From NCBI GenBank assembly GCA_003854985.1, contig RQOG01000061.1:1-64000 (forward strand): DNA of 64,000 nt. Reading direction: 5' to 3'. The stretch is from Calditrichota bacterium (GTDB lineage: Bacteria > Calditrichota > Calditrichia > Calditrichales > Calditrichaceae). Under the pieces are notes generated by a model that made no database searches, had not been told where the DNA came from, and saw only the letters and a program-made list of their open reading frames with translations. The position numbers were made by a program, and so were the translations under genes. This document shows positions 9,717-49,044 of the stretch, piece by piece. Positions within the stretch are counted from its first letter, which is position 1, and each line of letters starts with the position of its first letter.

Positions 9717-10616
9717 TTAATTTTTCCAGCTTCCCAACGCGATGACAAGCGCCAGTGAATTATACGAAGCCTCCTTACTGGCATTAACGGTTAAAACCAA
9801 TCCCATACCAAATCCCGTGGGGAAATGCGGTAAAGCCTGAAACTTAAATATTAAACCAATATTTCTAACTGACTCATTATAACTTAAACCCGCACTAAAT
9901 GAAGCGTCGATCCAGCGTGAGTTATTAGAAAAACCATAACAGCCCCAGATTGTTTTTAACTTCCCAAAAAAAATATACCTAAAATTATCTAATCCAATTG
10001 AAATTATATTATTTCTAAAACGATAATTCATACTGAATTGAAATTGCAAATCGTCGTACTTCGTGATCATGTCAACACCCAGCTGAAACCACCTGGCTGA
10101 ATTTAAGGATTTATTAATTCCAGCCTCTTTATTCTCCTTTACCTTTTTATTTATAAAATTTTCTTCAAAATCAGGATCTGATACTTTAGGTGAATTCGGC
10201 AAAGGATTATTAACGGCATCTCTGTAAGCAATCAGATCGGGTAAATCCGGCGGTTTAAAATATTCTCCACATTGCAGCCTTAAATAGTATTCATTGATAT
10301 TTTCAAGATTTTCATTTTTACCTCTGAATAAATGAACATATAACGTATCCCGATTTAAACTTGAATAAACAGGGATATAATATAAAGGCTTTTTTATTAA
10401 TTGCACTGTCGCAAATGTTTTTATCCATAAAGCCCAGGATGTTTCACCAGAAGTTGTTATAGAAGGAGACTTGACATAAGCCAGTTTGATCAACTGGGAA
10501 TCAGAGGAAAGGAAAAGATTGCAATCAAGAACTTTGATAATTTCAATTTCTTGCTTGTCCTGGGAGAAGGCAAAAGTCGAATACATGAACATCAAACATA
10601 ACCATAGCTTTTTCAT
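9717..10616 (-). CDS. Exported SNase-like/barrel protein (paralogue 3)
   Basis: A 299-residue protein with a signal peptide (cut after F-A-F-S) and an SNase-like region (about 23-150) almost identical to paralogue 2. Both share a short acidic/lysine-rich linker (about 150-170) and then a C-terminal barrel-like half that keeps W-I-D-A-S and L-P-H-F but otherwise differs. It begins 22 bases after the phosphomevalonate kinase stop, so it is probably translated from the mevalonate transcript. The conserved head with a variable barrel suggests that the surface-facing part is under diversifying change. Confidence 0.65.
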   Translation of the reverse strand: MKKLWLCLMFMYSTFAFSQDKQEIEIIKVLDCNLFLSSDSQLIKLAYVKSPSITTSGETSWALWIKTFATVQLIKKPLYYIPVYSSLNRDTLYVHLFRGKNENLENINEYYLRLQCGEYFKPPDLPDLIAYRDAVNNPLPNSPKVSDPDFEENFINKKVKENKEAGINKSLNSARWFQLGVDMITKYDDLQFQFSMNYRFRNNIISIGLDNFRYIFFGKLKTIWGCYGFSNNSRWIDASFSAGLSYNESVRNIGLIFKFQALPHFPTGFGMGLVLTVNASKEASYNSLALVIALGSWKN

Positions 10617-13880: not shown

Positions 13881-14770
13881 TTTGTTATTCATCGATATTT
13901 TGCATCAAGCCACAACTGACGAAGGAAAATATATTTGTAACGCTTAAATTGTTATTCATCGATATTTTGCATCAAGCCACAACATTACAATAATTCATAT
14001 TTTTCAGGCTATTATTGTTATTCATCGATATTTTGCATCAAGCCACAACGACAGCGCGTTTCAATACTATAAATATATATTGTTAGTTATCGATATTTTG
14101 CATCAAGCCACAACTCAAATATCTGCAGCGTATCGCCGCCCTTGATTGTTAGTTATCGATATTTTGCATCAAGCCACAACGGTATTAACCCGGAAAATGG
14201 TGGAAATAAAATTGTTAGTTATCGATATTTTGCATCAAGCCACAACTGAGCCCGGATGCGGATATCATGGAAATTATTGTTAGTTATCGATATTTTGCAT
14301 CAAGCCACAACAGCTCTGTCTGGCTGTCATTATTTCGGCTTATTGTTAGTTATCGATATTTTGCATCAAGCCACAACGAATTAACCCGTAAAATGGTGGA
14401 GGTATAATTGTTAGTTATCGATATTTTGCATCAAGCCACAACAAAGCAACAAAGGAGATGGAAACGGCAACGATTGTTAGTTATCGATATTTTGCATCAA
14501 GCCACAACCTGATTCCCTTTGCCATATAGCCCCTTTTATTGTTAGTTATCGATATTTTGCATCAAGCCACATCTCTAAACCCTTTAACCTGTTCAGTAAC
14601 TCGATTGTTAGTTATCGATATTTTGCATCAAGCCACAACCAGATGATTTAACGGCAATTTTTGAAGATATTGTTAGTTATCGATATTTTGCATCAAGCCA
14701 CAACAGCGGTGTAGTGAAGGACTCCGCGCCATGAATTGTTAGTTATCGATATTTTGCATCAAGCCACAAC
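13881..14770 (-). CRISPR. Type II-C CRISPR array, 14 repeats and 13 spacers
   Basis: Repeats of 36 bp start at 13881, 13948, 14014, 14079, 14145, 14211, 14276, 14342, 14407, 14473, 14538, 14604, 14669 and 14735. Spacers are 29-31 bp. The invariant part is CGATATTTTGCATCAAGCC-ACAAC on the plus strand. The transcribed strand is taken as minus (repeat 5' GTTGTGGCTTGATGC...AACAAT 3') because that strand pairs with the tracrRNA. The three repeats at 13881-14049 share variant bases (TTATTCATCG for TTAGTTATCG), consistent with the old, leader-distal end; the repeat at 14538 ends CACATC. New spacers should enter near 14770, beside cas2. Spacers 14181-14210 and 14378-14406 are near-duplicates. Confidence 0.98.
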
Positions 14771-37624: not shown

Positions 37625-38059
37625 ATGATTGTCACAGTTGATACCAACGTTATTTTTTCAGCGCTTTATAGTAATAAAGGCGCTTCTCATTGTATTTTAA
37701 GATTAATCCTTGATGAAAAAATAAATTTAGCGATCTCAACGCAGATTTATTTCGAATATTACGATGTTTTAATCCGTAAAAGCAGTTTAAAGCAGTTAAA
37801 TTTATCGGTTTCTGAAATAGAAGACATTCTGGATTTACTGGCTTTGCTTTCTCAGAAATATCATATCTATTATTTATTAAGGCCCAATCTTCCTGATGAA
37901 AGCGATAATATATTTGTGGAATGTGCATTTGCCAGTGATAGTAAATATTTAATTACCGGTAATATAAAAGATTTCAAAAAAAGTGAATTAAAGGGCTTTA
38001 ACTTTAAATTAGTAATGCCTGGCGAGTTTTATAAACTATGGAGTATAAAAAATGAGTAA
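37625..38059 (+). CDS. PIN-domain toxin of a toxin-antitoxin pair
   Basis: 144 residues with PIN motifs V-T-V-D6-T-N-V-I-F-S-A near the start, a middle acidic residue in the Y-D-V-L segment, and D-E-S-D-N-I-F-V-E-C-A-F-A-S-D-S-K-Y-L-I-T-G-N-I-K-D-F near the end. It fits the PIN_3 group of putative RNases (VapC-like). The next gene encodes a ribbon-helix-helix-type protein and overlaps by 8 bases. The order (toxin first) is the reverse of most vapBC pairs. Base composition is AT-rich, like the accessory genes downstream. Confidence 0.85.
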   Translation: MIVTVDTNVIFSALYSNKGASHCILRLILDEKINLAISTQIYFEYYDVLIRKSSLKQLNLSVSEIEDILDLLALLSQKYHIYYLLRPNLPDESDNIFVECAFASDSKYLITGNIKDFKKSELKGFNFKLVMPGEFYKLWSIKNE

Positions 38060-38315
38060 TACTCAGGTAGTAACCTTGAGAATGCCTAAAGAGCTAAAAC
38101 GTCGTCTTGACAGAGAAGCAAAATATCAGGGTGTATCGATAAATCAACTTGCTAATTATTTGGTAAATATTCAATTAACACATTTGGAATCTGTTTCCCT
38201 GTTAGAGTCAAGGCTGGAGAAGAAATCTATCCGTTCTTTAAAAAGGAAGGTAAAAAGAACGATTGATAATGTACCCGAAAGAAATGTGCCATCCTGGGAT
38301 TCGGTCAATGAATGA
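38052..38315 (+). CDS. Ribbon-helix-helix-like antitoxin
   Basis: 87 residues. V-V-T-L-R-M-P-K-E-L-K-R-R-L-D-R-E-A-K-Y-Q-G-V-S-I-N-Q-L-A is a typical strand-helix-helix DNA-binding start of the HicB/CopG type; the rest is a charged tail that could cover the toxin. It overlaps the PIN gene and should repress the promoter at 37590 as a dimer. The pairing is inferred from order and overlap. Confidence 0.82.
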   Translation: MSNTQVVTLRMPKELKRRLDREAKYQGVSINQLANYLVNIQLTHLESVSLLESRLEKKSIRSLKRKVKRTIDNVPERNVPSWDSVNE

Positions 38316-38379
38316 TGAAGTAGTTGGTTTTGTGGGCTTCGAAATTCTGAAATCAGCATTAGATATTGGAAATTAAAAA

Positions 38380-38680
38380 AAATGAATGTCGACTATCGAT
38401 TAGCGAATAATAAATCATGAGGGAATGGAAAGCTTGCAAACTTCGGCATTCAGCGTTAGGCATTTGATATTTGAAATTAAAAGATGAATGTCCAATAGCG
38501 AATATCCAATGACGAATAATGAAGGCGGATGACCTCATAAAGCTGGTCCAGATGTTTTTTACTGAAAATTTGATTTTATTATGAAAACCTTACAGGTTAT
38601 TTATTTGTTTATATAAGGATTGATAATACAAAGGTGTTTTGATATATTAAGAAAAAATTCTTACTAATATAAGTTATGTG
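38380..38680 (+). repeat. Giant attC-like module A (dispersed repeat plus right-hand site)
   Basis: It contains TTTGATATTTGAAATTAAAA, GAATGTCCAATAGCGAATAT and CGAATAATGAAGGCGGATGA, shared with modules at 39990-40377 and 45410-45857. It ends with the common tail TTCTTACTAATATA-A-GTTATGTG (38660-38680). The last 110 bp match module B at 40268-40377 closely. By analogy with modules B and C, GTTATGTG (38673-38680) would be the right recombination end of a preceding cassette. No matching left arm is found behind the antitoxin gene, so the preceding unit seems decayed. Confidence 0.55.
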
Positions 38681-38756
38681 TTTATTTTCAAATAAATATT
38701 TACTATTACATTTCTTAAATATGAAAATCATATTCACATACTTAATGAGGTATAAA

Positions 38757-39254
38757 ATGCAATATTTTAAATTCTTTTTTATTGTTTTGGTAGTATTTAT
38801 AGGCTGCCAGCCAAATACCAAGACTGAGCCTTTTGATTTAGAGGCTGCAAAAAAGGTTGTCAACACTCAATTAGACAATCTTCACCAATCTTCGAAAGCC
38901 AAGGATATTAGTTTCTTAAGAAACATGTTCACTGATGACGGCCTTTGTTTAGGAACCGATCCTGGAGAATTTTGGGACAAAGAACAAGTTATAAATGTAA
39001 ACTTGCATATGTTTGAGGATGAATCTATGGTATTCGATTACTCAATTGATAAACGTGAAATACGATTTAATCCGGATGGGAACTCAGCAATTTGTGTGGA
39101 ACAATTTACTTGGAATTCGTTTAGTCAGAAGATTCCCCTTCGTTTAGTAACTCATTTCATAAATATTAACAATGATTGGAAGTTGGATTTTGTCAGTTGG
39201 AGTTTGATACCTCTAAATGCTGATTTAGTCAAATTAAACAAGGCACTGGAGTAA
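38757..39254 (+). CDS. Lipoprotein with NTF2/SnoaL-like fold (first cassette)
   Basis: Start ATG 38757 has TGAGG upstream and yields a lipoprotein signal ending F-I-G-C. Residues 27-150 have the layout of an NTF2/SnoaL-like domain: a long first helix (A-A-K-K-V-V-N-T-Q-L-D-N-L-H), F-T-D-D-G-L-C-L-G, a central strand set with I-C-V-E-Q-F-T-W, and a closing W-K-L-D-F-V-S-W-S. Such domains bind small ligands or have varied enzymatic roles. It follows module A and is followed by an attC-like site. AT-rich composition suggests transfer. Confidence 0.7.
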   Translation: MQYFKFFFIVLVVFIGCQPNTKTEPFDLEAAKKVVNTQLDNLHQSSKAKDISFLRNMFTDDGLCLGTDPGEFWDKEQVINVNLHMFEDESMVFDYSIDKREIRFNPDGNSAICVEQFTWNSFSQKIPLRLVTHFININNDWKLDFVSWSLIPLNADLVKLNKALE

Positions 39255-39383
39255 TAGTTACATTAAATACTTTTATATCGTGTAAAAACCTACGCATCAT
39301 TTAATTCAACCTTGAATTAAATGAATGTGTTGGATTTTGTTTTTACGATCATTAACATCAATTAAAATTTTTAAGCATTTAAT

Positions 39384-39515
39384 GCACACTAAAACCTTGT
39401 TTACAGCGGATCGCTAAAGCGCTCCGCGAATTCCGCGTGGACGCGGAATTCAAAAACACAACATTCGGGACAGTCGTTCTTGTCCCGTGGCCGCTGAAAC
39501 AGACGTTAGCAGTTT
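39384..39515 (+). other. attC-like site 1
   Basis: The inner arms TGTTT(A)CAGCGG (39398-39409) and CCGCTGAAACA (39491-39501) pair perfectly apart from one extra A in the left arm. The right end is GTTAGC (39505-39510). The left end CACACTAAAAC (39385-39395) only partly matches the start of its cassette (GTTATGTG). The space between the arms holds three further hairpins: CGCTAAAGCG, GAATTCCGCG/CGCGGAATTC (10 bp) and CGGGACA/TGTCCCG. A site of about 125 bp with single extra bases fits attC. Confidence 0.6.
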
Positions 39516-39528
39516 AAAGAGGGCGGAA

Positions 39529-39885
39529 ATGCAAAATTATAATTCAAACATTGTAAAAGGAAATCATGCTGAAGAAAATGATCTCAGAACATTTTTAGAT
39601 GGCAGTGTACGTTCTACCGTTTTACTGCGGTCCTGTGCTGTTGGCTTAGGGACTTACAACCCGGGGTGGAAATGGAGTGCTCATGCCGGAGCACAAACAG
39701 GAAAATCTTCAGAGAACCACATCGGGTATATTTTATCCGGAAACATGATAGTAAAAGATTCAAATGGAATTGAAATAGAAGTCGGTTCTGGTGAAGCTTT
39801 TGAGGTTGGCCCCGGGCATGATGCATGGGTCATCGGTAATGAGCCTTGTATCGCACTTGATTTTATTCCAATAAAAAACTGCTAA
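39529..39885 (+). CDS. Small cupin-domain protein (second cassette)
   Basis: 118 residues from ATG 39529, preceded by GAGGGCGG. The cupin fold shows in the H-A-G-A-Q-T-G segment, G-Y-I-L-S-G-N-M-I-V, and the second motif G-E-A-F-E-V-G-P-G-H-D-A-W-V. Metal-binding histidines are partly kept (H in W-S-A-H-A-G, H in P-G-H-D). Single-domain cupins bind or convert small molecules. The stop TAA lies inside AAACTGCTAAC, the reverse complement of the unit start 39505-39515, so the gene fills its cassette. Confidence 0.85.
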   Translation: MQNYNSNIVKGNHAEENDLRTFLDGSVRSTVLLRSCAVGLGTYNPGWKWSAHAGAQTGKSSENHIGYILSGNMIVKDSNGIEIEVGSGEAFEVGPGHDAWVIGNEPCIALDFIPIKNC

Positions 39886-40377
39886 CAATGCAGTCAAGAA
39901 GATTTGCTGTTTTTCTTGCCGATTGAAAGTCTATAGTTTTAATAGTCTTCACACCCTATTGTCTATAGGCACCATTAACCCGCCAACCCTTTATCGTCAT
40001 CGTTGTCGTGACCGGCTGCACTTATCCATAAAAAAGCTTTCACCAATCGGCGTTCGACATTTGATATTGGAAATTAAAAGATGAATGTCCAATAGCGAAT
40101 ATCCAATGACGAATAATGAAGGCGGATGATCTGACGAAGCTGGTAAAATAATTTTTTTCTTCATATTATTCAAAGTAGTTATTCCTGATATGATTTAAAT
40201 GGTTGAACGACATAAAGATAAACAACTATGATTACAGGATATATTAATAATATTTTCCTGAAAAAGTGATTTTATTATGAAAACCATACGGGTTAAGTAC
40301 CTATTTATTTTAAGATTGATAATAAAAATAGATTTTGATATATTGAGAGCAAATTCTTACTAATATAGGTTATGCAC
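39876..40377 (+). other. Giant attC-like site 2 (module B, about 500 bp)
   Basis: R'' AAACTGCTAAC (39876-39886) matches the cupin unit start. L'' AAGAA(GA)TTTGCT (39896-39908) and L' AGCAAATTCTT (40348-40357) pair perfectly with two extra bases on the left. R' is GTTATGCAC (40369-40377). The 440 bases between the arms contain the dispersed repeat (39990-40145) found elsewhere in the window, so the variable loop of the site has grown by repeat insertion or is a conserved family feature. Confidence 0.65.
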
Positions 40378-40494
40378 TTTAAGATTATAATTTTCAATTA
40401 ATAAGAACATTAAAAGTATAAGTTTCATTCTTTTCTAAAAGTTACATAATTCTTAAAACAAAGGAGAAGACATGAATATATCGTCGGTTGACAA

Positions 40495-40655
40495 GCCCCG
40501 TTTAGAACCGTAATTCTAAGCGGAGCGGAAAAAGGCTTAAGGCTGTATCATTATCGTGGGACACGGATCCCGTAAAGGAGACTGGTCAGGCCTTGAGCGT
40601 CTGTCGCCATAGGGCATGTTAGACCCTGAATAGGAGTGTGGCACAACCGACAAGA
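40495..40655 (+). ncRNA. Predicted IS110 bridge RNA
   Basis: Three helices are read by eye. A 5' stem-loop: CCGTTTAGAA (40498-40507) with TTCTAAGCGG (40514-40523), 10 bp. A second helix, GCTTAAGGC (40535-40543) with GCCTTGAGC (40590-40598), closes a 46-nt loop that itself holds GGGA/TCCC. A third, TGTCGCCA (40602-40609) with TGG (40639-40641) and CGACA (40648-40652), has a bulge and an inner AGGG/CCCT. One 5' stem-loop followed by two large internal loops in the upstream end of the element is the layout of IS110 bridge RNAs (target-binding then donor-binding loop). Confidence 0.7.
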
Positions 40656-40703
40656 ATTCTGCTCTAATATGATAAAACCAAAACAATAGGAGGAGCAGAG
40701 ACC

Positions 40704-41714
40704 ATGAGTTATATAGGAGTTGATTTACACAAGAATAATTTTCAGGTATGCTATATTAATGGTCAACAGAAAAAGTTTTCTCATTATAGTATTCATGACC
40801 TGGAAAAGTTTAAAGAGACGTTAAATAAGGAAGATCACCTGGCGGTAGAATCGACGGGTAACACGCGTTACTTCATGAATCAGGTAAAAGAGGCTGTAGG
40901 GCGTGTTGTAGTGGTAAATCCCCGCCAGTTTAAAGTAATTAGTAATTCGGTAAAGAAAACAGATAAACAGGACGCGGAGCAGCTTGCACTATTTCTGAGC
41001 AAAGATATGCTTCCGGAAGTACGCATGAAAGATGAAAAACGCAGTCAGTTAAAAAGCCTGGCCAACACACGTGATAAGTTGGTAAAATTACGCACGGCGT
41101 TAAAAAATAAAGTGCACAATATTTTGAACGCCCATGGCATTGTTACCCCGCGCGAAGCGTTTAGCAGCAATAAAAGTCTGGATGGTTTAAAAGATTATGC
41201 GGTAAATGAACTGGCCCATCTTGAGATAGAAGTGATAGTCAGCCAGATTCGTTCTTTAAATGAAGGTATAAAAAGACTGGATAAGCAGATTGAAGACGCT
41301 GGTAAAGACTTAGACGGTTTTGAAAACATCACCAGCATAAAGGGTATCGGTAAAAAAAGTGGAACGATTCTATTGAGTATCATAGGCGACATAAATGATT
41401 TTGCCGATCCGGGTAAACTGGCCTCCTTCTTCGGTGTTGTTCCGCGTATAAGCAATTCCAATGAGAACATTCATCAGGGACGCATAACCAAACAAGGCAG
41501 CAAGCTGGGTAGAACAACTCTTGTCCAGTGTACGTTAATCGCCATAAGATATTCGGATTATCTGAGAAGTTTCTATGAACGGCTAAAGCTAAAAAAAGGA
41601 AGCGGCAAGGCCATAATAGCCACAGCCCGCAAGTTTTTAGATATTATTTATATGACCTTAAAAAATAAATTAATCTTTGAAGATTTCCCTAATTTCGTGT
41701 TGAAATCTTCATAA
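40704..41714 (+). CDS. IS110-family transposase (DEDD recombinase)
   Basis: 336 residues, intact. The N-terminal RuvC-like domain has D7 (Y-I-G-V-D-L-H-K), E49 (A-V-E-S-T-G), and D87/D90 (K-K-T-D-K-Q-D-A). A coiled-coil-like middle leads to the C-terminal Tnp domain with I-K-G-I-G-K-K-S-G-T and R-I-T-K-Q-G-S266-K-L-G-R, whose serine is the expected nucleophile. The start follows AGGAGGAG. It should work with the RNA encoded just upstream. Full length suggests recent activity. Confidence 0.95.
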   Translation: MSYIGVDLHKNNFQVCYINGQQKKFSHYSIHDLEKFKETLNKEDHLAVESTGNTRYFMNQVKEAVGRVVVVNPRQFKVISNSVKKTDKQDAEQLALFLSKDMLPEVRMKDEKRSQLKSLANTRDKLVKLRTALKNKVHNILNAHGIVTPREAFSSNKSLDGLKDYAVNELAHLEIEVIVSQIRSLNEGIKRLDKQIEDAGKDLDGFENITSIKGIGKKSGTILLSIIGDINDFADPGKLASFFGVVPRISNSNENIHQGRITKQGSKLGRTTLVQCTLIAIRYSDYLRSFYERLKLKKGSGKAIIATARKFLDIIYMTLKNKLIFEDFPNFVLKSS

Positions 41715-41743
41715 TACTAAAGATTTTATCATAGGAGAATATT

Positions 41744-44668
41744 ATGGGTAAGCATTTTAGGTATTTTACTATTTTCATTATTTTAATAATTGTGGAATCC
41801 CATGCTACTGATTATTTGACCAATGCCATTTCATGGAAGAACTGTTGCCAAGCATATAATCAGGGTTATCCAGCTGAAGATTTTCAGACAAATTTTGTTG
41901 GTGACTTTAATGGTGATGGGCTTGAGGATAAACTTTATATGTGCAGTGGAAAATATTGGGTAGCCTACACTGAGAATAAATCAACCTATGGAGTTCAAGG
42001 TTTTTCCGGCGAAAGTTGGACAAAGGAAATAGTATTTGATAGTAATTCTGAATTTGAAAGACGTGCAATAGGTGATTTTAATGGAGATGGCGCAGATGAT
42101 ATTCTGATTATTAGGGCATATTCAAACAACATTAAATTGGAAGTTGCTCTTTCAGTACAAAAAAGATTAGCTAACTCAGCTGGACCATATGGCCAATATA
42201 TAGATGTATCTGATGGTAGTTATTTTTTTAAACCTAATGAAGTATGGGGAACGACAATAACCGCATTTAAGAGTGCATTTGAAAACTCATTTGTTAAAGA
42301 CGCAAAATTAAATAAAGTATATATTGGTGATGTAACTGGAGATGGTTTGGATGATATTGTAATTCTATATTATAATAAATATATCTATGTAATAAAATCT
42401 GTATATACACCAAATTTTTCTACTTCTGGTGCAGATTTTGCAAATTATTCTTTCTCAAGCCATCAATACAAATTAAATCTTGGGAGTTATGTAGATGAAT
42501 TTTTTCTTGGTGATTTTAACGGTGATGGTTACGATGATATTACGTATACAAAAATATCACCATATAATAACAATTTCTATATAGCCTTAAATAAGGGTAA
42601 AGATTCAGATACTAGTCCCGGTTATTTTTCAACAAATGAATTTACAGGAGCATTCTATTCACCATATGATGCAAGTGGTAACCACGGTTCATTGTCCATT
42701 TCAAATTTTCCATTGCACTTTATTTCAGATTTTAATGGTGATGGATTAGATGATAAACTTTATCTATGTTCAAGTAAATACTATATCTCACTTTCGAAGA
42801 TTAGTCCGGATGGAAAGCCTTATTTTCAAAGTGAGATAATTTGGGGTGCTATTGATTGGTCTAACTATGGCAGAAGTTATATTGGCGATTTTAATGGAGA
42901 TGGATTTAATGATATTCTAAATGCAAGGACAAACTCTACATGGGATGTTCGACTTGCAGATAAAGAAGCTATTTTTGATAATGCTACATTTGCACAAGAT
43001 GGACATAACGGTGAAGCCAGAATGGAGAAAATAGTAGCCTGTTGGATGTTTCCTTTTACTTACCTTTGGCCAGAAAGAGGATGGAGTGCATTTGGTTACC
43101 ATCCAAATGAGAGATATATGTCAGGATTCCCATATATCACTCCCATAATAAATTGGGGTTCAACTGATTTTCCCTTAATTGAAACAAATTCAGCAACTTG
43201 GATTGAAGGACCTTATTCTTATTTGGATTTCACTAATAATCCCCTATCATATTCAACGGAAGATGTTTTAAAAATGCAAATTGAGTCTATTATTAAATCC
43301 GGTATTAAAGTAATCGTCGTAGATGTAACTAATGGTTTTATCGATGTGGATGAATTTAATCATCAAGCATATGATAGTAGTGGAGATAGTACTAATTATA
43401 GTAATGTAAGAGAAGCATTGACAAATATATTCGAAATTGTAAAAAATAATAATTTAGATATAAAAATTGCAGTAGGACTTGGCAAGGAATTTTGGGGAAG
43501 ATTCGAATTGAAACCACATAGCTATGATCCGTTTATACCTTGTTATGGAAATGCAAATTTAGTAATAGGTTGGGAAGCTCAAAGAAGTAGACAGAGAATT
43601 GCTTTGGATAAAATTGAGTTAGATTATATTACTCCTTATAATGACAAATACTTTTACTATCAAGGTAAACCACTCGTAGTCACCTATGTTATACCATCTC
43701 GTGATTTTCCAATGACAGCTGATGGCTATCTTCAAGAGACAATCCCAAGAACATTTTTTCCTGATTTTAATGTTAAAATTGCTCTGAGTGCAAATAGTAC
43801 ATATGCATGGTTTAGAGGGAACAATGCTATATTCCAAAACGGCTTGGATAATACAAATTATTGGAGTTGGGGCTCTGAATTACTTAATAATAATATTTAT
43901 GGGGCTGATTCTAAAACTGCAAATTTTCCAAGTTATTCCAATGAAAAGTTACCCTATAATGCAGAATGCATGTCTGTAATGCCGGGTAGAACCATGGTTT
44001 GGCACAATCTAACAGACAGGGATGGTAATGGTGTGCCTCGATGGGCAGATAATAATAGCAATCATTACTTTGAATCCTGGAAATCTGTAATAAATGCCGA
44101 TCCGCGTATTGTCTTAATATGTGACTGGAATACATGGGGTGAAGCGACTTCTATTGAAGCATGTACAACAGGACCCGGTAAAACCTGGTATGAAAGTGAT
44201 GGCTGTACACCAGATCCCGGGTATGATGATGCACAAGACATACAACTGTTTAGGAGCCCTTGGCACAATAGTAGCGGTACTAATGATCCATTCTTTTATC
44301 AAAATTTAACTAAAGATTTTTCAGATTATTTTGTTGGTAATACTTATACTCCACCAGTATTAAGTAAAGCAAATTTTAACGAAAACTTAATAATTGAGAA
44401 TCCAATATCTTTTGAGCTAAAACAAAATTATCCGAATCCATTTAATCCAATCACAAAAATAGAATTTTCAATTCCCGAAGATTCAGATATTTATTTAAAA
44501 ATTTATAATGTTTTGGGTCAGGAAGTTTATTTTTATCATAAAGACAATTTACTAAAAGGATATCATACAATTAATTTTGATGGATCGAATTTATCAAGTG
44601 GTCTTTATATTTATACATTTAAGGCAGGCAAATTCGAAAAGAAGATGAAAATGTTATTGGTTAAATAA
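41744..44668 (+). CDS. Large secreted FG-GAP protein with GH99-like domain and T9SS sorting domain (third cassette)
   Basis: 974 residues. A signal peptide (to about 21) is followed by at least five FG-GAP/VCBS-type repeats with the calcium-binding core G-D-F-N-G-D-G-x-x-D-D (about residues 50-410). Residues about 425-865 look like the TIM barrel of GH99/GH71-like enzymes, with L-I-C-D-W-N-T-W-G-E-A-T-S-I-E near the end as in their W-N-E-W-G-E-x-x-x-I-E motif. The last 80 residues are a T9SS sorting domain (N-Y-P-N-P-F-N-P to G-L-Y-I-Y). It may cleave alpha-mannan-type glycans at the surface. Carriage on an integron-like cassette is unusual for a gene this large. Confidence 0.82.
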   Translation: MGKHFRYFTIFIILIIVESHATDYLTNAISWKNCCQAYNQGYPAEDFQTNFVGDFNGDGLEDKLYMCSGKYWVAYTENKSTYGVQGFSGESWTKEIVFDSNSEFERRAIGDFNGDGADDILIIRAYSNNIKLEVALSVQKRLANSAGPYGQYIDVSDGSYFFKPNEVWGTTITAFKSAFENSFVKDAKLNKVYIGDVTGDGLDDIVILYYNKYIYVIKSVYTPNFSTSGADFANYSFSSHQYKLNLGSYVDEFFLGDFNGDGYDDITYTKISPYNNNFYIALNKGKDSDTSPGYFSTNEFTGAFYSPYDASGNHGSLSISNFPLHFISDFNGDGLDDKLYLCSSKYYISLSKISPDGKPYFQSEIIWGAIDWSNYGRSYIGDFNGDGFNDILNARTNSTWDVRLADKEAIFDNATFAQDGHNGEARMEKIVACWMFPFTYLWPERGWSAFGYHPNERYMSGFPYITPIINWGSTDFPLIETNSATWIEGPYSYLDFTNNPLSYSTEDVLKMQIESIIKSGIKVIVVDVTNGFIDVDEFNHQAYDSSGDSTNYSNVREALTNIFEIVKNNNLDIKIAVGLGKEFWGRFELKPHSYDPFIPCYGNANLVIGWEAQRSRQRIALDKIELDYITPYNDKYFYYQGKPLVVTYVIPSRDFPMTADGYLQETIPRTFFPDFNVKIALSANSTYAWFRGNNAIFQNGLDNTNYWSWGSELLNNNIYGADSKTANFPSYSNEKLPYNAECMSVMPGRTMVWHNLTDRDGNGVPRWADNNSNHYFESWKSVINADPRIVLICDWNTWGEATSIEACTTGPGKTWYESDGCTPDPGYDDAQDIQLFRSPWHNSSGTNDPFFYQNLTKDFSDYFVGNTYTPPVLSKANFNENLIIENPISFELKQNYPNPFNPITKIEFSIPEDSDIYLKIYNVLGQEVYFYHKDNLLKGYHTINFDGSNLSSGLYIYTFKAGKFEKKMKMLLVK

Positions 44669-44727
44669 ATTATAATTCTAAAGTAATAAAAATTTATAGT
44701 ACTCTAAGTTATTAATAATAGCGCATT

Positions 44728-44839
44728 GTGCATAACAAGGGCATTAACGGCGACTGGATCAGCCGCCATTCTATTACGAAAAGTTCATGGGCTTGGAAAG
44801 GTCATCGGCCAGCGCGTTATGCCCCAGCCGTTAGCTTTT
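44728..44839 (+). other. attC-like site 3 (best preserved)
   Basis: R'' GTGCATAAC (44728-44736) is the exact reverse complement of the unit start GTTATGCAC at 40369. L'' GGGCAT(T)AACG(G)CG(A)CTGG (44739-44757) pairs over 16 bp with L' CCAGCGCGTTATGCCC (44809-44824), leaving exactly three unpaired bases, all on the left arm. R' is GTTAGC (44830-44835). Total length of about 107 bp and the extrahelical bases are classical attC features. A diverged copy of its central part occurs at 46958-47015. Confidence 0.75.
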
Positions 44840-44846
44840 TAGGAAT

Positions 44847-45233
44847 ATGAAGATATATTCTATATTATTAACAATTATTTTTGTCTTGCTATTTTTTTGT
44901 GAACAGGATAAAAAGTCTGTGCATTTTCGTCCACCTCATCCCGATAGTATAGGTGTTGGAACAGCAGAATATTTGCAAGGCGAAAAACAAGCAAATTTAG
45001 ATTTTAAAAATGATAATTCTAAATTCTATCTCGTTGGATTAATAAACTTAAATTCTCTGAGTGCTGAAAATATGAGGAAAGAATTTAAAAGTAAATATAA
45101 TATTGAACTAAGCTTTGAAGTCTGTACGGGGGGAAGTGCATATAAAAACGGGTATAATAACACAATTAAAAAATTAGTTGAAAAGAAGCATGAAATTAGT
45201 CTCAAAAAAGAAGTTCATGAATGGATAAATTAA
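44847..45233 (+). CDS. Small lipoprotein (fourth cassette), unknown function
   Basis: 128 residues with a lipoprotein-like signal (hydrophobic core then L-L-F-F-C-E near residue 18). The mature part is charged and contains N-S-L-S-A-E-N-M-R-K-E-F-K-S-K-Y-N-I-E-L-S and C-T-G-G-S-A-Y-K-N-G-Y-N. No family recognised. The ATG lies only 11 bases after the attC-like right end and the cassette closes 5 bases after the stop, the tight fit expected of a gene cassette. Confidence 0.65.
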   Translation: MKIYSILLTIIFVLLFFCEQDKKSVHFRPPHPDSIGVGTAEYLQGEKQANLDFKNDNSKFYLVGLINLNSLSAENMRKEFKSKYNIELSFEVCTGGSAYKNGYNNTIKKLVEKKHEISLKKEVHEWIN

Positions 45234-45238
45234 ATATT

Positions 45239-45857
45239 AAAAGCTAACACCTTTTAAAAGGACTTTGTCATTAGGAAAACAGTACTCCCGTAAAAAATCT
45301 CTATATTTTTTAAATATATACCATCAATTTTTTCCTTGAACCATAATTGACAAATAGCATTTGCCTTTCGAATAGCCATTGCGGCTGACCAGACTGGCCT
45401 TTAGAAATAATATCGAATATCGATTAGCGAATGATGATTTCAGATTTAAATAGATCCCATTGTGCCCGTTGATCGTCATCGATATCGTTATCGATATCGT
45501 AATCGGCTATTCTTCTTCAGTAAAAAGGCTTCCGCCAATCGGCGTTCGGCATTTGATATTGGAAATTAAAAGATGAATGACCAATAGCGAATATCCAATA
45601 ACGAATAATGAAGGCGGATGACCTGATAAAGCCAGTTAAGCAATTTTTTCTGTATGTTATTCAATAACAGCATGATTGATATAGTTTAATGGCCTGATAA
45701 ATATTTGCTGCCATAAACAATATAAAAAATTTATTCTGAATAAAGTGATATAAAATAGTAATCCGGGTATTCTAAGTATAATTTACACAGGTAATTGTTA
45801 GCGGTAATATCTTTTATTATATTGAGACTAAATTCTTACTAATATATGTTAGTTTGC
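45239..45857 (+). other. Giant attC-like site 4 (module C, about 620 bp)
   Basis: R'' AAAAGCTAAC (45239-45248) matches the unit start GTTAGCTTTT (44830-44839). L'' AAGGACTTTGTC (45258-45269) and L' GACTAAATTCTT (45826-45837) are complementary at 9 of 12 positions. R' is GTTAGTTTGC (45848-45857). The loop holds the dispersed repeat including CGATATCGTTATCGATATCG, GGCGTTCGGCATTTGATATT and AATAGCGAATATCCAATAAC. No gene lies between 45234 and 45873. Confidence 0.55.
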
Positions 45858-45873
45858 TTTAGGAGTAAATGAT

Positions 45874-46797
45874 ATGTCTTCATTGGTTCTTGAATTACAG
45901 AATGAAGCAATAGATTCACAAAAATCTGTTGTGAGTTTGTTACGTAAAGCCCTTGTTATTTCAAGAAAATTAAATTTAGTAGATTTTGATAACTGGATAA
46001 ATAATGAACTAAATGGTTATTCAAAAGGTGATGAAATTCCTGAATATCGTAGGGTTCAAGGAGATGTAAAAGCATTCAATCCATACAATGGAATGTGGAT
46101 GCCTATAGTATGTGAGGATTCAAAAAAAGCGGAATTTATGTCAACCAGAATGATTGGTCAGAAAATTACTGAATTAGAAAAAATTGATTTAAAAGGTGAT
46201 TCTGGAGTATTACATGTTCCATTTGCTAAAAATATAGAAACTAAACTAATGAATAGCATGGATCTACATTCTAAACCAGTGCTCATCGTTCCATCAACTT
46301 CAGTGCATGGAATTATTGAATCAGTTAGAAATATTTTACTAAACTGGGCATTAAAATTAGAGCAACAAGGTGTTTTAGGTGAAAATCTAATTTTCAATGA
46401 AATTGAAAAGACGACAGCATTATCGAATCAACAAATTAATATAACTAATTTTCAGGGTATTTTAGGAGATGTGACAAACAGTTATGTTGAACAATCAAAT
46501 TTACAAAGAATCACAAAAAATGATTTTGAATCACTTAAAAAATATTTGATTGATCAATTGAAACTTAATGCTGAAGATGTTTCAGAGCTTGAAAAAGCAA
46601 TTAAGAATGATCCAAAACCAAAAACAAAAGAAAAATTCGGTTCGTATGTATCGAAGTGGCTAGGTAAAATTATATCGAAATCTGCTGAAGGTCTGTATAA
46701 ACTATCGTTAAACTCAGCCGCAAGTGTTCTTGGACAAGCAATCTGGACATATTATGGTTTTTTGCAAACTAACCAATCGCTTAAGACATTATGTTAA
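45874..46797 (+). CDS. AbiTii-domain protein, probable abortive-infection defence gene (fifth cassette)
   Basis: 307 residues. The N-terminal 150 match the AbiTii pattern: L-V-L-E-L-Q-N-E-A-I-D, S-L-L-R-K-A-L-V-I-S-R-K-L, F-D-N-W-I-N-N-E-L-N-G-Y, E-I-P-E-Y-R-R-V-Q-G-D-V-K-A and S-T-R-M-I-G-Q-K-I-T-E-L-E. The C-terminal half is different, with a helical lysine-rich stretch and a hydrophobic end (about 275-295). AbiTii proteins are linked to phage defence by abortive infection. The cassette end GCAAACTAAC (46764-46773) lies inside the frame, so the last 8-11 residues may be encoded by foreign attC sequence. Confidence 0.75.
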   Translation: MSSLVLELQNEAIDSQKSVVSLLRKALVISRKLNLVDFDNWINNELNGYSKGDEIPEYRRVQGDVKAFNPYNGMWMPIVCEDSKKAEFMSTRMIGQKITELEKIDLKGDSGVLHVPFAKNIETKLMNSMDLHSKPVLIVPSTSVHGIIESVRNILLNWALKLEQQGVLGENLIFNEIEKTTALSNQQINITNFQGILGDVTNSYVEQSNLQRITKNDFESLKKYLIDQLKLNAEDVSELEKAIKNDPKPKTKEKFGSYVSKWLGKIISKSAEGLYKLSLNSAASVLGQAIWTYYGFLQTNQSLKTLC

Positions 46798-47030
46798 AAA
46801 GTAATTGATGATGCGCGCACTCCTTTCATACTTTAGAGACAAAAAAGTGTTTAAGAAAGGAGTTATCATGCAAACGCAAAATCGTTCTTTGAATTTTAGC
46901 GGTCAGACTTTTTATATCGGCCTGGTGCTTGTTTTTAGCCCGTCAGTAGCCGGGTAGGCCGGATCAGCCGTTGATTCAATTCCGAAAAAAGTGCATCGGC
47001 ACAGCGCAGTCATGTGCCGCGCCATTGGGC
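46764..47030 (+). other. Decayed attC-like site 5
   Basis: R'' GCAAACTAAC (46764-46773) is the exact reverse complement of the unit start at 45848. Bases 46958-47015 (GGATCAGCCG...ATTC.ATT.CGAAAA...CATCGG.CAGCGC) repeat the central part of site 3 at 44757-44815. A possible right end (A)TTGGGC lies at 47024-47030. An IS110 gene start is inserted in between, and inner arms no longer pair clearly. Confidence 0.45.
46868..46957 (+). pseudogene. N-terminal stub of an IS110-family transposase
   Basis: After AAAGGAG a frame of 29 codons begins M-Q-T-Q-N-R-S-L-N-F-S-G-Q-T-F-Y-I-G-L, resembling starts of IS110/IS1111 transposases (x-N-F-x-x-Q-x-x-x-V-G-I-D-V-H-K). The expected D-L/V-H-K is absent: the frame switches to unrelated sequence after Y-I-G-L and stops at 46957. 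It is a fragment left by deletion, unrelated to the intact copy at 40704. Confidence 0.5.
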
Positions 47031-47039
47031 TGAATGCGG

Positions 47040-47337
47040 GGGCTGCCGGGGAAGAAACGCCACAGCGGATATTAAGGGCAGCCTGAGATAGAGATTTATC
47101 TTTAGGATAAAATTATACTTTCTGCAAACCAAAGAAATTTCCCATATAGCTGAAAAAAATATTTAAAATTAATTTCTTTCTTTTATGAAATTGAATTATT
47201 ATATTAAAAATGTAAACCGGAATGAATTACAATTAACTTATCGCAATGGCCATTAACAATTCAAAAATATAATTAACATAAAGTCACAAAGACATTTTTT
47301 AAGATATAAAAAATAACTTCCTTTTTTTGGAGGTAAA
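47040..47337. other. AT-rich spacer before the secreted-protein pair
   Basis: No gene is supported. The stretch presumably carries the promoter of the following two genes; I see no unambiguous -35/-10 pair. A good ribosome binding site (TTGGAGG) lies directly before 47338. Confidence 0.5.
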
Positions 47338-49044
47338 ATGAAGGTTATTTTGATTTTTCTTTTATTTATATTTTCTGCTTTATATGCAGATCATATACAA
47401 GACGATATTGAACGCTATAAAGATAAAGGTAATATTAAAATAGAATATATAGAAGACTACAGCATTAAGATAATAAACACAAAAACAGGAAATACAAAAT
47501 ATGTCAATATTAAGAATACTAAAAATATTGACTTAAATAAGAATGTTTCCACCCAGATATTTGATCTGCCCAATATACCTGTTTCACTTTATGAACATCG
47601 TTATATTTACAAATCCAGAATATTGATTGGGCAAAGTTATGGGTATCCAATGGTGTTCGGAGATTTTAATAATAACGGGAAATTAGATATAGCCGGATTA
47701 TTTAAACTTGTTCAGGATTATGAAATTGGTCAGGCCGGCATATTTGAATTACAGGAAGACAGTAGTTTTACACAGCAATACTTGTATGCATATTCAGATT
47801 CATCTCTTCAACCGCTTTCCATTACTGATTTGGATAAGGACGGTCTATTAGAACTAAACATTAAGAGGGGCCAGACATTCCGCAATTATGAACAGGCTTA
47901 TCCTGATACTTTTCCCACGGATAGTGTTTTCGACCATCGCATGTGGCAGGTATCCGGCATGGTTGGTTCGGAAACATTTTGTTATATAGACTATGATTCG
48001 CTGATGGATGTGGCCTATGTAGGCGATGATACGTTAGCCCCCTCGGGCAATAAACTCTATATTGCCGAATACAAACCTGAATTAAATAATTTTGTGCAGG
48101 TCGGCCGGTTTCCTTTCCCGGAATGGCGGGTATCCGGAATAAGTATAGGGGATTTTGACGGTGACAATCATAAAGAAGTTGTTACAGGCAGCATTCACGG
48201 CGACATATACGTGGTGGAGAATACCGGTGATGACAGCTATACACAGACATTCACCTCAACCATCAGCACATCCAATGCCTATCTGAATTGCACAACCAAT
48301 GATATCGACCATAATGGAAAAATTGAGTTTTTCATTGGCGCATCATCATACTGGTCTGATGAAAGCGCTACGCGCGTCTGCTGGTTTGAAGCTGATGGTG
48401 ACAATAATTATGTGATTGAGCGGGAAGTATTTTTAAAAGGAACCGGTGTATTGGGGACCACTGAGATGTATAATTATGATGTAAACGCCGATGGCGTCGA
48501 TGACCTTGTTTTTGCCTTTGAACACTATGTGGTTATTCTTGTCTGGAATAACAGTAGACAGCAATTTGAATTATTTTATCTGAACCATATTGATTTAGGA
48601 TATAGCATGATAGAAAGCGTTATTGTTTATAATGTTTATAACGATAAAAATCCTAATCTTTTTATTACAGTGGAAGATGCATGGCATTACCCTCGTCTTT
48701 CGACATTTTATTATAAACCGGATTTAACAACCGGTTTTCAAGGAGAGAGTAATAAACTCATATCCGAATATCGCTTAGAACAAAACTATCCTAATCCATT
48801 TAATAACGCATCCGTTATTCCATTTTATTTACCAAAATCATGTATAGTGTATTTAACCATTTATGATTTAACCGGAAAGGAGGTGAAAAAACTAATTAAT
48901 AATCAGAAATTATTTCAGGGAAAACACCAGGTTACATGGAATGGTCAAAATAATAAGGGGAAGGAGGTAAGCAGCGGATTTTATATTTTTCAGCTTAAAA
49001 CAGATGATGTAACACTAGTGAAAAAACTTTTACTTATTAAATAA
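47338..49044 (+). CDS. Secreted FG-GAP repeat protein with T9SS sorting domain
   Basis: 568 residues. A signal peptide (cut near L-Y-A) is followed by an acidic/lysine-rich segment and several VCBS/FG-GAP-like repeats (V-F-G-D-F-N-N-N-G-K-L-D-I-A-G, I-T-D-L-D-K-D-G-L-L, I-G-D-F-D-G-D-N-H-K-E, Y-D-V-N-A-D-G-V-D-D-L). The C-terminal 80 residues are a T9SS sorting domain (Q-N-Y-P-N-P-F-N-N to G-F-Y-I-F-Q-L). A calcium-stabilised beta-propeller on the surface is likely. The next gene starts 15 bases on, so they form an operon. Confidence 0.82.
   Translation: MKVILIFLLFIFSALYADHIQDDIERYKDKGNIKIEYIEDYSIKIINTKTGNTKYVNIKNTKNIDLNKNVSTQIFDLPNIPVSLYEHRYIYKSRILIGQSYGYPMVFGDFNNNGKLDIAGLFKLVQDYEIGQAGIFELQEDSSFTQQYLYAYSDSSLQPLSITDLDKDGLLELNIKRGQTFRNYEQAYPDTFPTDSVFDHRMWQVSGMVGSETFCYIDYDSLMDVAYVGDDTLAPSGNKLYIAEYKPELNNFVQVGRFPFPEWRVSGISIGDFDGDNHKEVVTGSIHGDIYVVENTGDDSYTQTFTSTISTSNAYLNCTTNDIDHNGKIEFFIGASSYWSDESATRVCWFEADGDNNYVIEREVFLKGTGVLGTTEMYNYDVNADGVDDLVFAFEHYVVILVWNNSRQQFELFYLNHIDLGYSMIESVIVYNVYNDKNPNLFITVEDAWHYPRLSTFYYKPDLTTGFQGESNKLISEYRLEQNYPNPFNNASVIPFYLPKSCIVYLTIYDLTGKEVKKLINNQKLFQGKHQVTWNGQNNKGKEVSSGFYIFQLKTDDVTLVKKLLLIK

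Follow-up and report, generated by a model that had tools for sequence, protein, structure and literature searches.

Integrons are usually described as having one attI site and an array in which the first cassettes alone are well expressed (PMC8618304; also general knowledge). Clusters of attC sites lacking integron-integrases (CALINs), insertions at attG sites and delta-attI cassettes have already been described (PMC8618304, PMC12444791, PMC12901181), and the origins proposed for arrays without an integrase are off-target insertion, loss of intI and rearrangement (PMC8618304). Here, a cassette array is analysed in a stretch of 64,000 nucleotides (hereafter the window), which covers positions 1 to 64,000 of contig RQOG01000061.1 of a Calditrichota bacterium (GCA_003854985.1). 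An earlier note, made from the sequence alone, had taken the region 38673-47030 for an orphan attC cluster. That the units are integron cassettes stands, whereas the array is not an attC cluster devoid of a platform: it contains three platforms in tandem, each with a cassette promoter (Pc) and an attI-like site. On the sequence evidence, these are likely to be integron platforms truncated in intI, belonging to a dispersed set of Pc-attI sites that is probably served in trans by a single integrase (IntI).

Promoter-attI platforms in the window and their dispersal

The units that start at 38673, 40369 and 45848 are preceded by a common sequence, ...TTCTTACTAATATA.GTTA, and not by the second arm of an attC site. 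From left to right, this module comprises the first ~17-20 codons of intI in reversed orientation, a Pc promoter and a core ending at G|TTA, in which the inverted boxes CTTAC...GTTAG can be read, in our own reading, as putative L and R boxes. The intervals 39887-40368 and 45249-45847 likewise hold an intI stub, a promoter and an attI-like core rather than an attC site. The stubs, all on the minus strand, were detected by tblastn in the three module copies of the window, and the promoters, all on the plus strand like the cores, were predicted from the sequence, with hexamers that are conserved in 17 copies. In platform A, the stub (38513-38560, KKHLDQLYEVIRL-HYS, with the rest of the gene missing) was aligned with the genome's own IntI at an E-value that is weak alone, its position and order fitting those of the other copies; it is followed by a predicted Pc with the sequence TTGATA-N17-TATATT (38620-38648) and by a core (38658-38676, G|TTA at 38673) that matches exactly the pattern TTCTTACTAATATANGTTA. 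Platform B carries a stub at 40110-40160 (RKKLFYQLRQIIRL-HYS, by alignment and tblastn), a predicted Pc with the same hexamers and spacing (40316-40344) and a core at 40354-40372 with its G|TTA at 40369, whereas platform C, a type B module, has a stub at 45599-45676 (NNIQKKLLNWLYQVIRL-HYSL), a predicted Pc reading TTGTTA-N17-TATATT (45795-45823) and a core at 45833-45851 with its G|TTA at 45848; both cores match the core pattern.

No integrase is encoded within the window, as the earlier note had stated, and the search that it proposed for an IntI-type integrase in the rest of the genome returned a single one, on another contig (C93:9543-10529, minus strand). This protein scores 463.6 bits against TIGR02249, the NCBI integron-integrase model, for which the cut-off is 265, and its best relative in the PDB is IntI4 (2a3v). 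A genome-wide search with the window stretch located a copy of the module on the same contig, 271 bp from the tyrosine recombinase match. This copy is divergent from intI and is followed by a cassette, GTTATACAG...CTGTATAAC, with 10-nt arms and a well-formed attC, which is joined to attI at G|TTRRRY. The window copies match the C93 module; along 151 bp, platform B and the attI region of C93 are 92% identical. The genome therefore holds a complete integron, of which the repeated module is the promoter-attI region. With regard to other recombinases, three tyrosine recombinase genes stand in a row on the same strand at C123:203-2677, possibly forming a recombinase-in-trio element.

Across the genome, the search gave 18 module matches on 14 contigs, seven of them with a perfect core. 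The right end of the homology is at G|TTA and the left ends vary by locus. Two families can be distinguished, A, as on C93, and B, found at 45848 and on C2, C3, C72 and C87. Identity between the two families reaches 92% in the -35 hexamer, 98% in the -10 hexamer and 86% in the attI core, against 46% in the other 89 positions, a pattern to be expected of a recognised site and of a promoter under selection. Stubs of the 5' end of intI are also present outside the window, on C15, C64, C17, C3 and C72. One truncation junction is common to the three window copies and a second one to C64, C17, C3 and C72; the copies therefore arose after the loss of intI, and the junctions indicate that segmental or element-borne duplication, and not 18 independent losses, would account for the set. 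As to the carrier of the module, an IS110 insertion sequence was considered, and its single copy in the genome speaks against it; a family search for an IS91-type transposase, which occurs as a cassette in G016, matched neither this genome nor the control genomes and thus carries no weight here. Neither a miniature inverted-repeat transposable element (MITE) nor a transposon was identified flanking the modules.

Two further observations concern the surroundings of the modules. A low-complexity repeat, CAATAGCGAATATCCAATGACGAATAATGAAGG, abuts the intI stubs in the window (38340-38530, 40030-40120 and 45400-45610) and on many contigs, and is also present elsewhere in the genome without the module. 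Upstream of the first module, 37625-38315 encodes a PIN toxin and a ribbon-helix-helix/HicB-like antitoxin.

The search for the module in relatives covered 40 genomes of the class, and all genomes compared are of genera other than that of the window's host; a Calditrichia metagenome-assembled genome (MAG) is among the same-class genomes, in agreement with the host of the FCB type (Fibrobacteres, Chlorobi and Bacteroidetes) that the earlier note had deduced. Elsewhere in this set the window module is absent, save for a weak 30-bp match in G026, and is therefore confined to this lineage. The same layout, with unrelated attI sequences, was nonetheless found in two other genera of the order, g12 and g13. 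In g12, three further copies of the G017 interval between intI and attI lie in G018, and one or more additional copies in each of G017, G015 and G020. The homology among these copies mostly stops at ...GGTTAATACATA|GTTA or close variants, and they carry an intI stub and a Pc with the sequence TTGCGC-N17-TATAAT, one of them being followed by a cassette with arms and an attC. In g13, the sequence on the attI side is present in G016 in as many as six copies, of which several are decayed. The same genome contains four copies of a cassette with an IS91-type HUH transposase (PF04986, 3.3e-58), among them L212 6662-8170 (G016:C15), L211 and L213. At two loci this cassette follows attI and at two more it follows attC sites that differ from each other; the joint is at G|TTA in every case. 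For this clade, the arrangement is direct comparative evidence that single units move at the predicted breakpoint. Dispersal is not seen everywhere: among eight members of the window's own family, the flank of the G001 intI was found a single time, in G001 itself.

Cassettes, attC sites and array ends

The arm pairs that the earlier note had described were recovered by a check of the window sequence. Four units open with GTTA and close with the exact reverse complement, over 11 nt (39505-39515/39876-39886), 9 nt (40369-40377/44728-44736), 10 nt (44830-44839/45239-45248) and 10 nt (45848-45857/46764-46773), with the closing arm standing in each case where the gene of the unit ends. In the interval 38001-47400, 6 of the 52 GTTA starts are matched by their 9-nt reverse complement in the following 5 kb, where 1.4 would be expected, and 60 dinucleotide-preserving shuffles gave at most 5 pairs against the 6 observed. 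Taken alone, the arm pairs are evidence of modest weight; chance plainly accounts for two of the six. They rise above chance because the closing arms stand at the ends of the unit genes and because two sites extend into paired inner arms.

These two sites are the complete attC sites of the window, both on the plus strand and 5.2 kb apart. The better one (44730-44836) has the arms GCATAACAAGGGCATTAACG...CGCGTTATGCCCCAGCCGTTAGC, and in the other (39387-39511) the inner arms pair with an extrahelical base and R'' is degenerate. Of the five attC sites originally proposed, two others are not attC sites, and the last (46764-47030) is half an attC followed by an insert of ~200 bp. Pairing of R''/R' and L''/L' with extrahelical bases is seen in both window sites and in further sites on C93, C64, C17, C21, C2, C3 and C72. 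The attC-like sites were scored with a script, in combination with shuffles and control stretches; on this scale, 8 sites with a score of at least 20 were found in 202 kb around the modules, whereas control stretches from this genome, 400 kb in total, yielded 1, as did each shuffled set. An Rfam scan of the window gave zero matches.

The cassettes of the window, all on the plus strand, carry varied cargo. Behind platform A, cassette 1 (38673-39397), with an imperfect R'', encodes a SnoaL_3 lipoprotein (38757-39254; PF13474, 1.4e-10) and cassette 2 (39505-39886), with exact 11-nt arms, a cupin protein (39529-39885). Cassette 3 (40369-44736), with exact 9-nt arms, encodes a secreted FG-GAP protein of 974 residues (41744-44668), whose Por_Secre_tail domain bears out the type IX secretion system (T9SS) cargo announced by the earlier note. 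On its 5' side, this cassette is broken by an IS110-family element (40440-41720, transposase 40704-41714), which sits between the attI-like site and the gene and is the only IS110 match in the genome; its non-coding leader of ~250 nt could hold a bridge RNA. Cassette 4 (44830-45248) has exact 10-nt arms and encodes an uncharacterised protein of 128 residues (44847-45233) without a Pfam match. The defence gene expected from the earlier note is found in cassette 5 (45848-46773, exact 10-nt arms), the open reading frame (ORF) of which (45874-46797) encodes AbiTii (Pfam PF18864, 2.3e-45; PADLOC AbiTii, 1.2e-48).

Exact arms of 9-10 nt with an attC or R'' are found behind the modules Wb, Wc, C93, C64, C17, C2a, C3 and C2b, and the cassettes on C93 and C64 encode T9SS-type proteins. 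On C2, a complete LmuA-LmuC-LmuB Lamassu system lies directly behind an attI-like module (L047 3370-7015, minus strand), as a unit of 3.75 kb and three genes with the exact 10-nt arms GTTATATTGC/GCAATATAAC. Furthermore, AbiEi/AbiEii, a GajB-like helicase and an LmuB-like pair are found behind modules on C87, C72 and C150, with cassette limits that are partly indistinct. At some distance from the array, regularly spaced repeats, TTGTTAGTTATCGATATTTTGCATCAAGCCACAAC, at ~14140-14600 of the window probably form an array of clustered regularly interspaced short palindromic repeats (CRISPR).

Some arrays end in an interrupted or truncated attC, and the R'' of cassettes that are unrelated is followed by one of two shared tail sequences. 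Tail 1 (45249-45390) directly follows R'', recurs twice on C2 after the R'' of other cassettes, is partially present on C12 and C156, and runs into the next module both in the window and on C2. Tail 2 (46774-46976) consists of the left half of an attC and then the repeated insert of ~200 bp, and is also found after R'' in the C3 and C72 arrays (L048 ~10085-10290; the end of L049). It begins within the attC arm and includes a short ORF start, MQTQNRSLNFSGQTFYIGL, which in our judgement resembles the start of an IS110 transposase. By analogy with the IS1111-attC group of insertion sequences, tail 2 may be a small or miniature IS110-derived insert in an attC.

Weighing the explanations

On the preferred reading, the region consists of three intI-truncated platforms in tandem. 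Ahead of its one or two cassettes, every platform has what is left of the 5' end of intI, a predicted cassette promoter of the sigma-70 type and an attI-like site that ends at G|TTA; the cassettes are closed by R'', to which a complete attC is added in two cases. The single IntI of C93 would recognise all the dispersed sites and would have inserted the cassettes in trans, and each array would be transcribed from its own predicted Pc. Several findings weigh against this reading. The MAG, in 180 contigs, is 95% complete, and a second integrase could sit in the missing part. A number of cores are decayed, with TTTTA on C52 and C57 and mutations on C58, C15 and in one C87 copy, and the copies on C52, C57, C58 and C15 are probably relics. 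Additionally, G018 has three Pc-attI copies (L191-L193), yet no IntI at an E-value of 1e-30; its integrase was either lost or lies on missing contigs.

The main rival, unlikely though we consider it, is that several formerly complete integrons each lost their integrase and that modules and cassettes persist as inactive debris of the CALIN type, a proposal of Cury et al. for arrays without an integrase (as quoted in PMC8618304). The intI stubs that remain in the window and on C15, C64, C17, C3 and C72 would be expected from such losses, as would the mutated cores and the arrays with interrupted or truncated attC ends. However, conservation is far higher in the Pc and the attI core than in the remaining sequence, seven cores are perfect, the shared truncation junctions point to copying after truncation instead of independent losses, and one intact IntI is still encoded; for the intact copies, this conservation and the surviving IntI speak against relics. 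It is rather improbable, by our estimate, that unusual cassettes terminate in attI in place of attC, with promoter and attI moving along with the gene as in the delta-attI cassettes of clinical integrons; stretches between an R'' and the next G|TTA, such as 39887-40368 and 45249-45847, would then be their 3' portions. Such an arrangement would fit the blocks of the window and of C2, which begin right after R'' and finish at G|TTA, and IntI1 is able to excise and insert delta-attI cassettes (PMC12901181), whereas on the left of most dispersed copies there are host genes without R'', and the left ends are variable.

Entry at secondary sites of the attG type, with a conserved upstream sequence that is only a promoter and not an attI, appears very improbable. 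As discussed in PMC12444791, attG sites in a genome can receive cassettes through IntI, but the conserved block lies beside intI on C93, within the integron, and takes in the first codons of that gene at many loci, and attG sites would not have 90-250 bp in common. An ordinary orphan attC cluster would explain attC sites in a window that has no integrase, and the threshold used for a CALIN was at least two clustered attC sites, as in PMC12444791; with three attI-like platforms heading the array and its only two complete attC sites separated by more than 5 kb, we regard this as scarcely credible. Going beyond the preferred reading of platforms served in trans, a distributed integron can be envisaged as a speculative and, in our view, doubtful extension. 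One integrase would act in trans on many self-multiplying chromosomal Pc-attI platforms, and IntI might itself move blocks of gene and Pc-attI as cassettes and so seed separately expressed platforms, with genes for defence and for secreted proteins as cargo, across the chromosome. As the layout is found in three genera with unrelated attI sequences, multiplication would then be a property of this integron lineage.

Relation to described integron systems

No description of many Pc-attI platforms combined with one integrase was found in the open-access literature that was searched, which omits most subscription papers. Such a combination would provide many first positions in place of one, and hence parallel expression of cassettes. 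Platforms with a Pc and an attI but without intI are, moreover, a concrete candidate origin for integrase-less arrays, and the cargo of the cassettes reaches the size of a three-gene Lamassu system.

Integron mobilization units and MITE-flanked truncated class 1 integrons are cases in which an integron with a truncated intI has moved as a unit. The modules described here are likewise intI-truncated and appear as units at many loci, but no flanking MITE or transposon was identified at them. The delta-attI cassettes of mobile integrons (PMC12901181) also bring an attI sequence into cassette arrays, downstream of a gene; there, a partial attI ends resistance cassettes within one array, whereas here a Pc-attI heads arrays at many chromosomal loci. 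The topology of a gene followed by attI fits between the units of the window and on C2. CALINs share with this array the attC-bearing cassettes without an adjacent intI, and differ in that every array here has a Pc and an attI-like site of its own at its head, together with an intI stub, and in that the window's two complete attC sites lie far from each other. The closest resemblance in components is to sedentary chromosomal integrons, which have an IntI of the TIGR02249 type, a Pc, an attI, attC sites and G|TTA joints, and of which the C93 locus is one. In this genome, however, there are ~18 Pc-attI platforms for one intI, and many loci carry a short array that holds one to a few cassettes, a layout that departs from the textbook integron of one integrase and one landing site.

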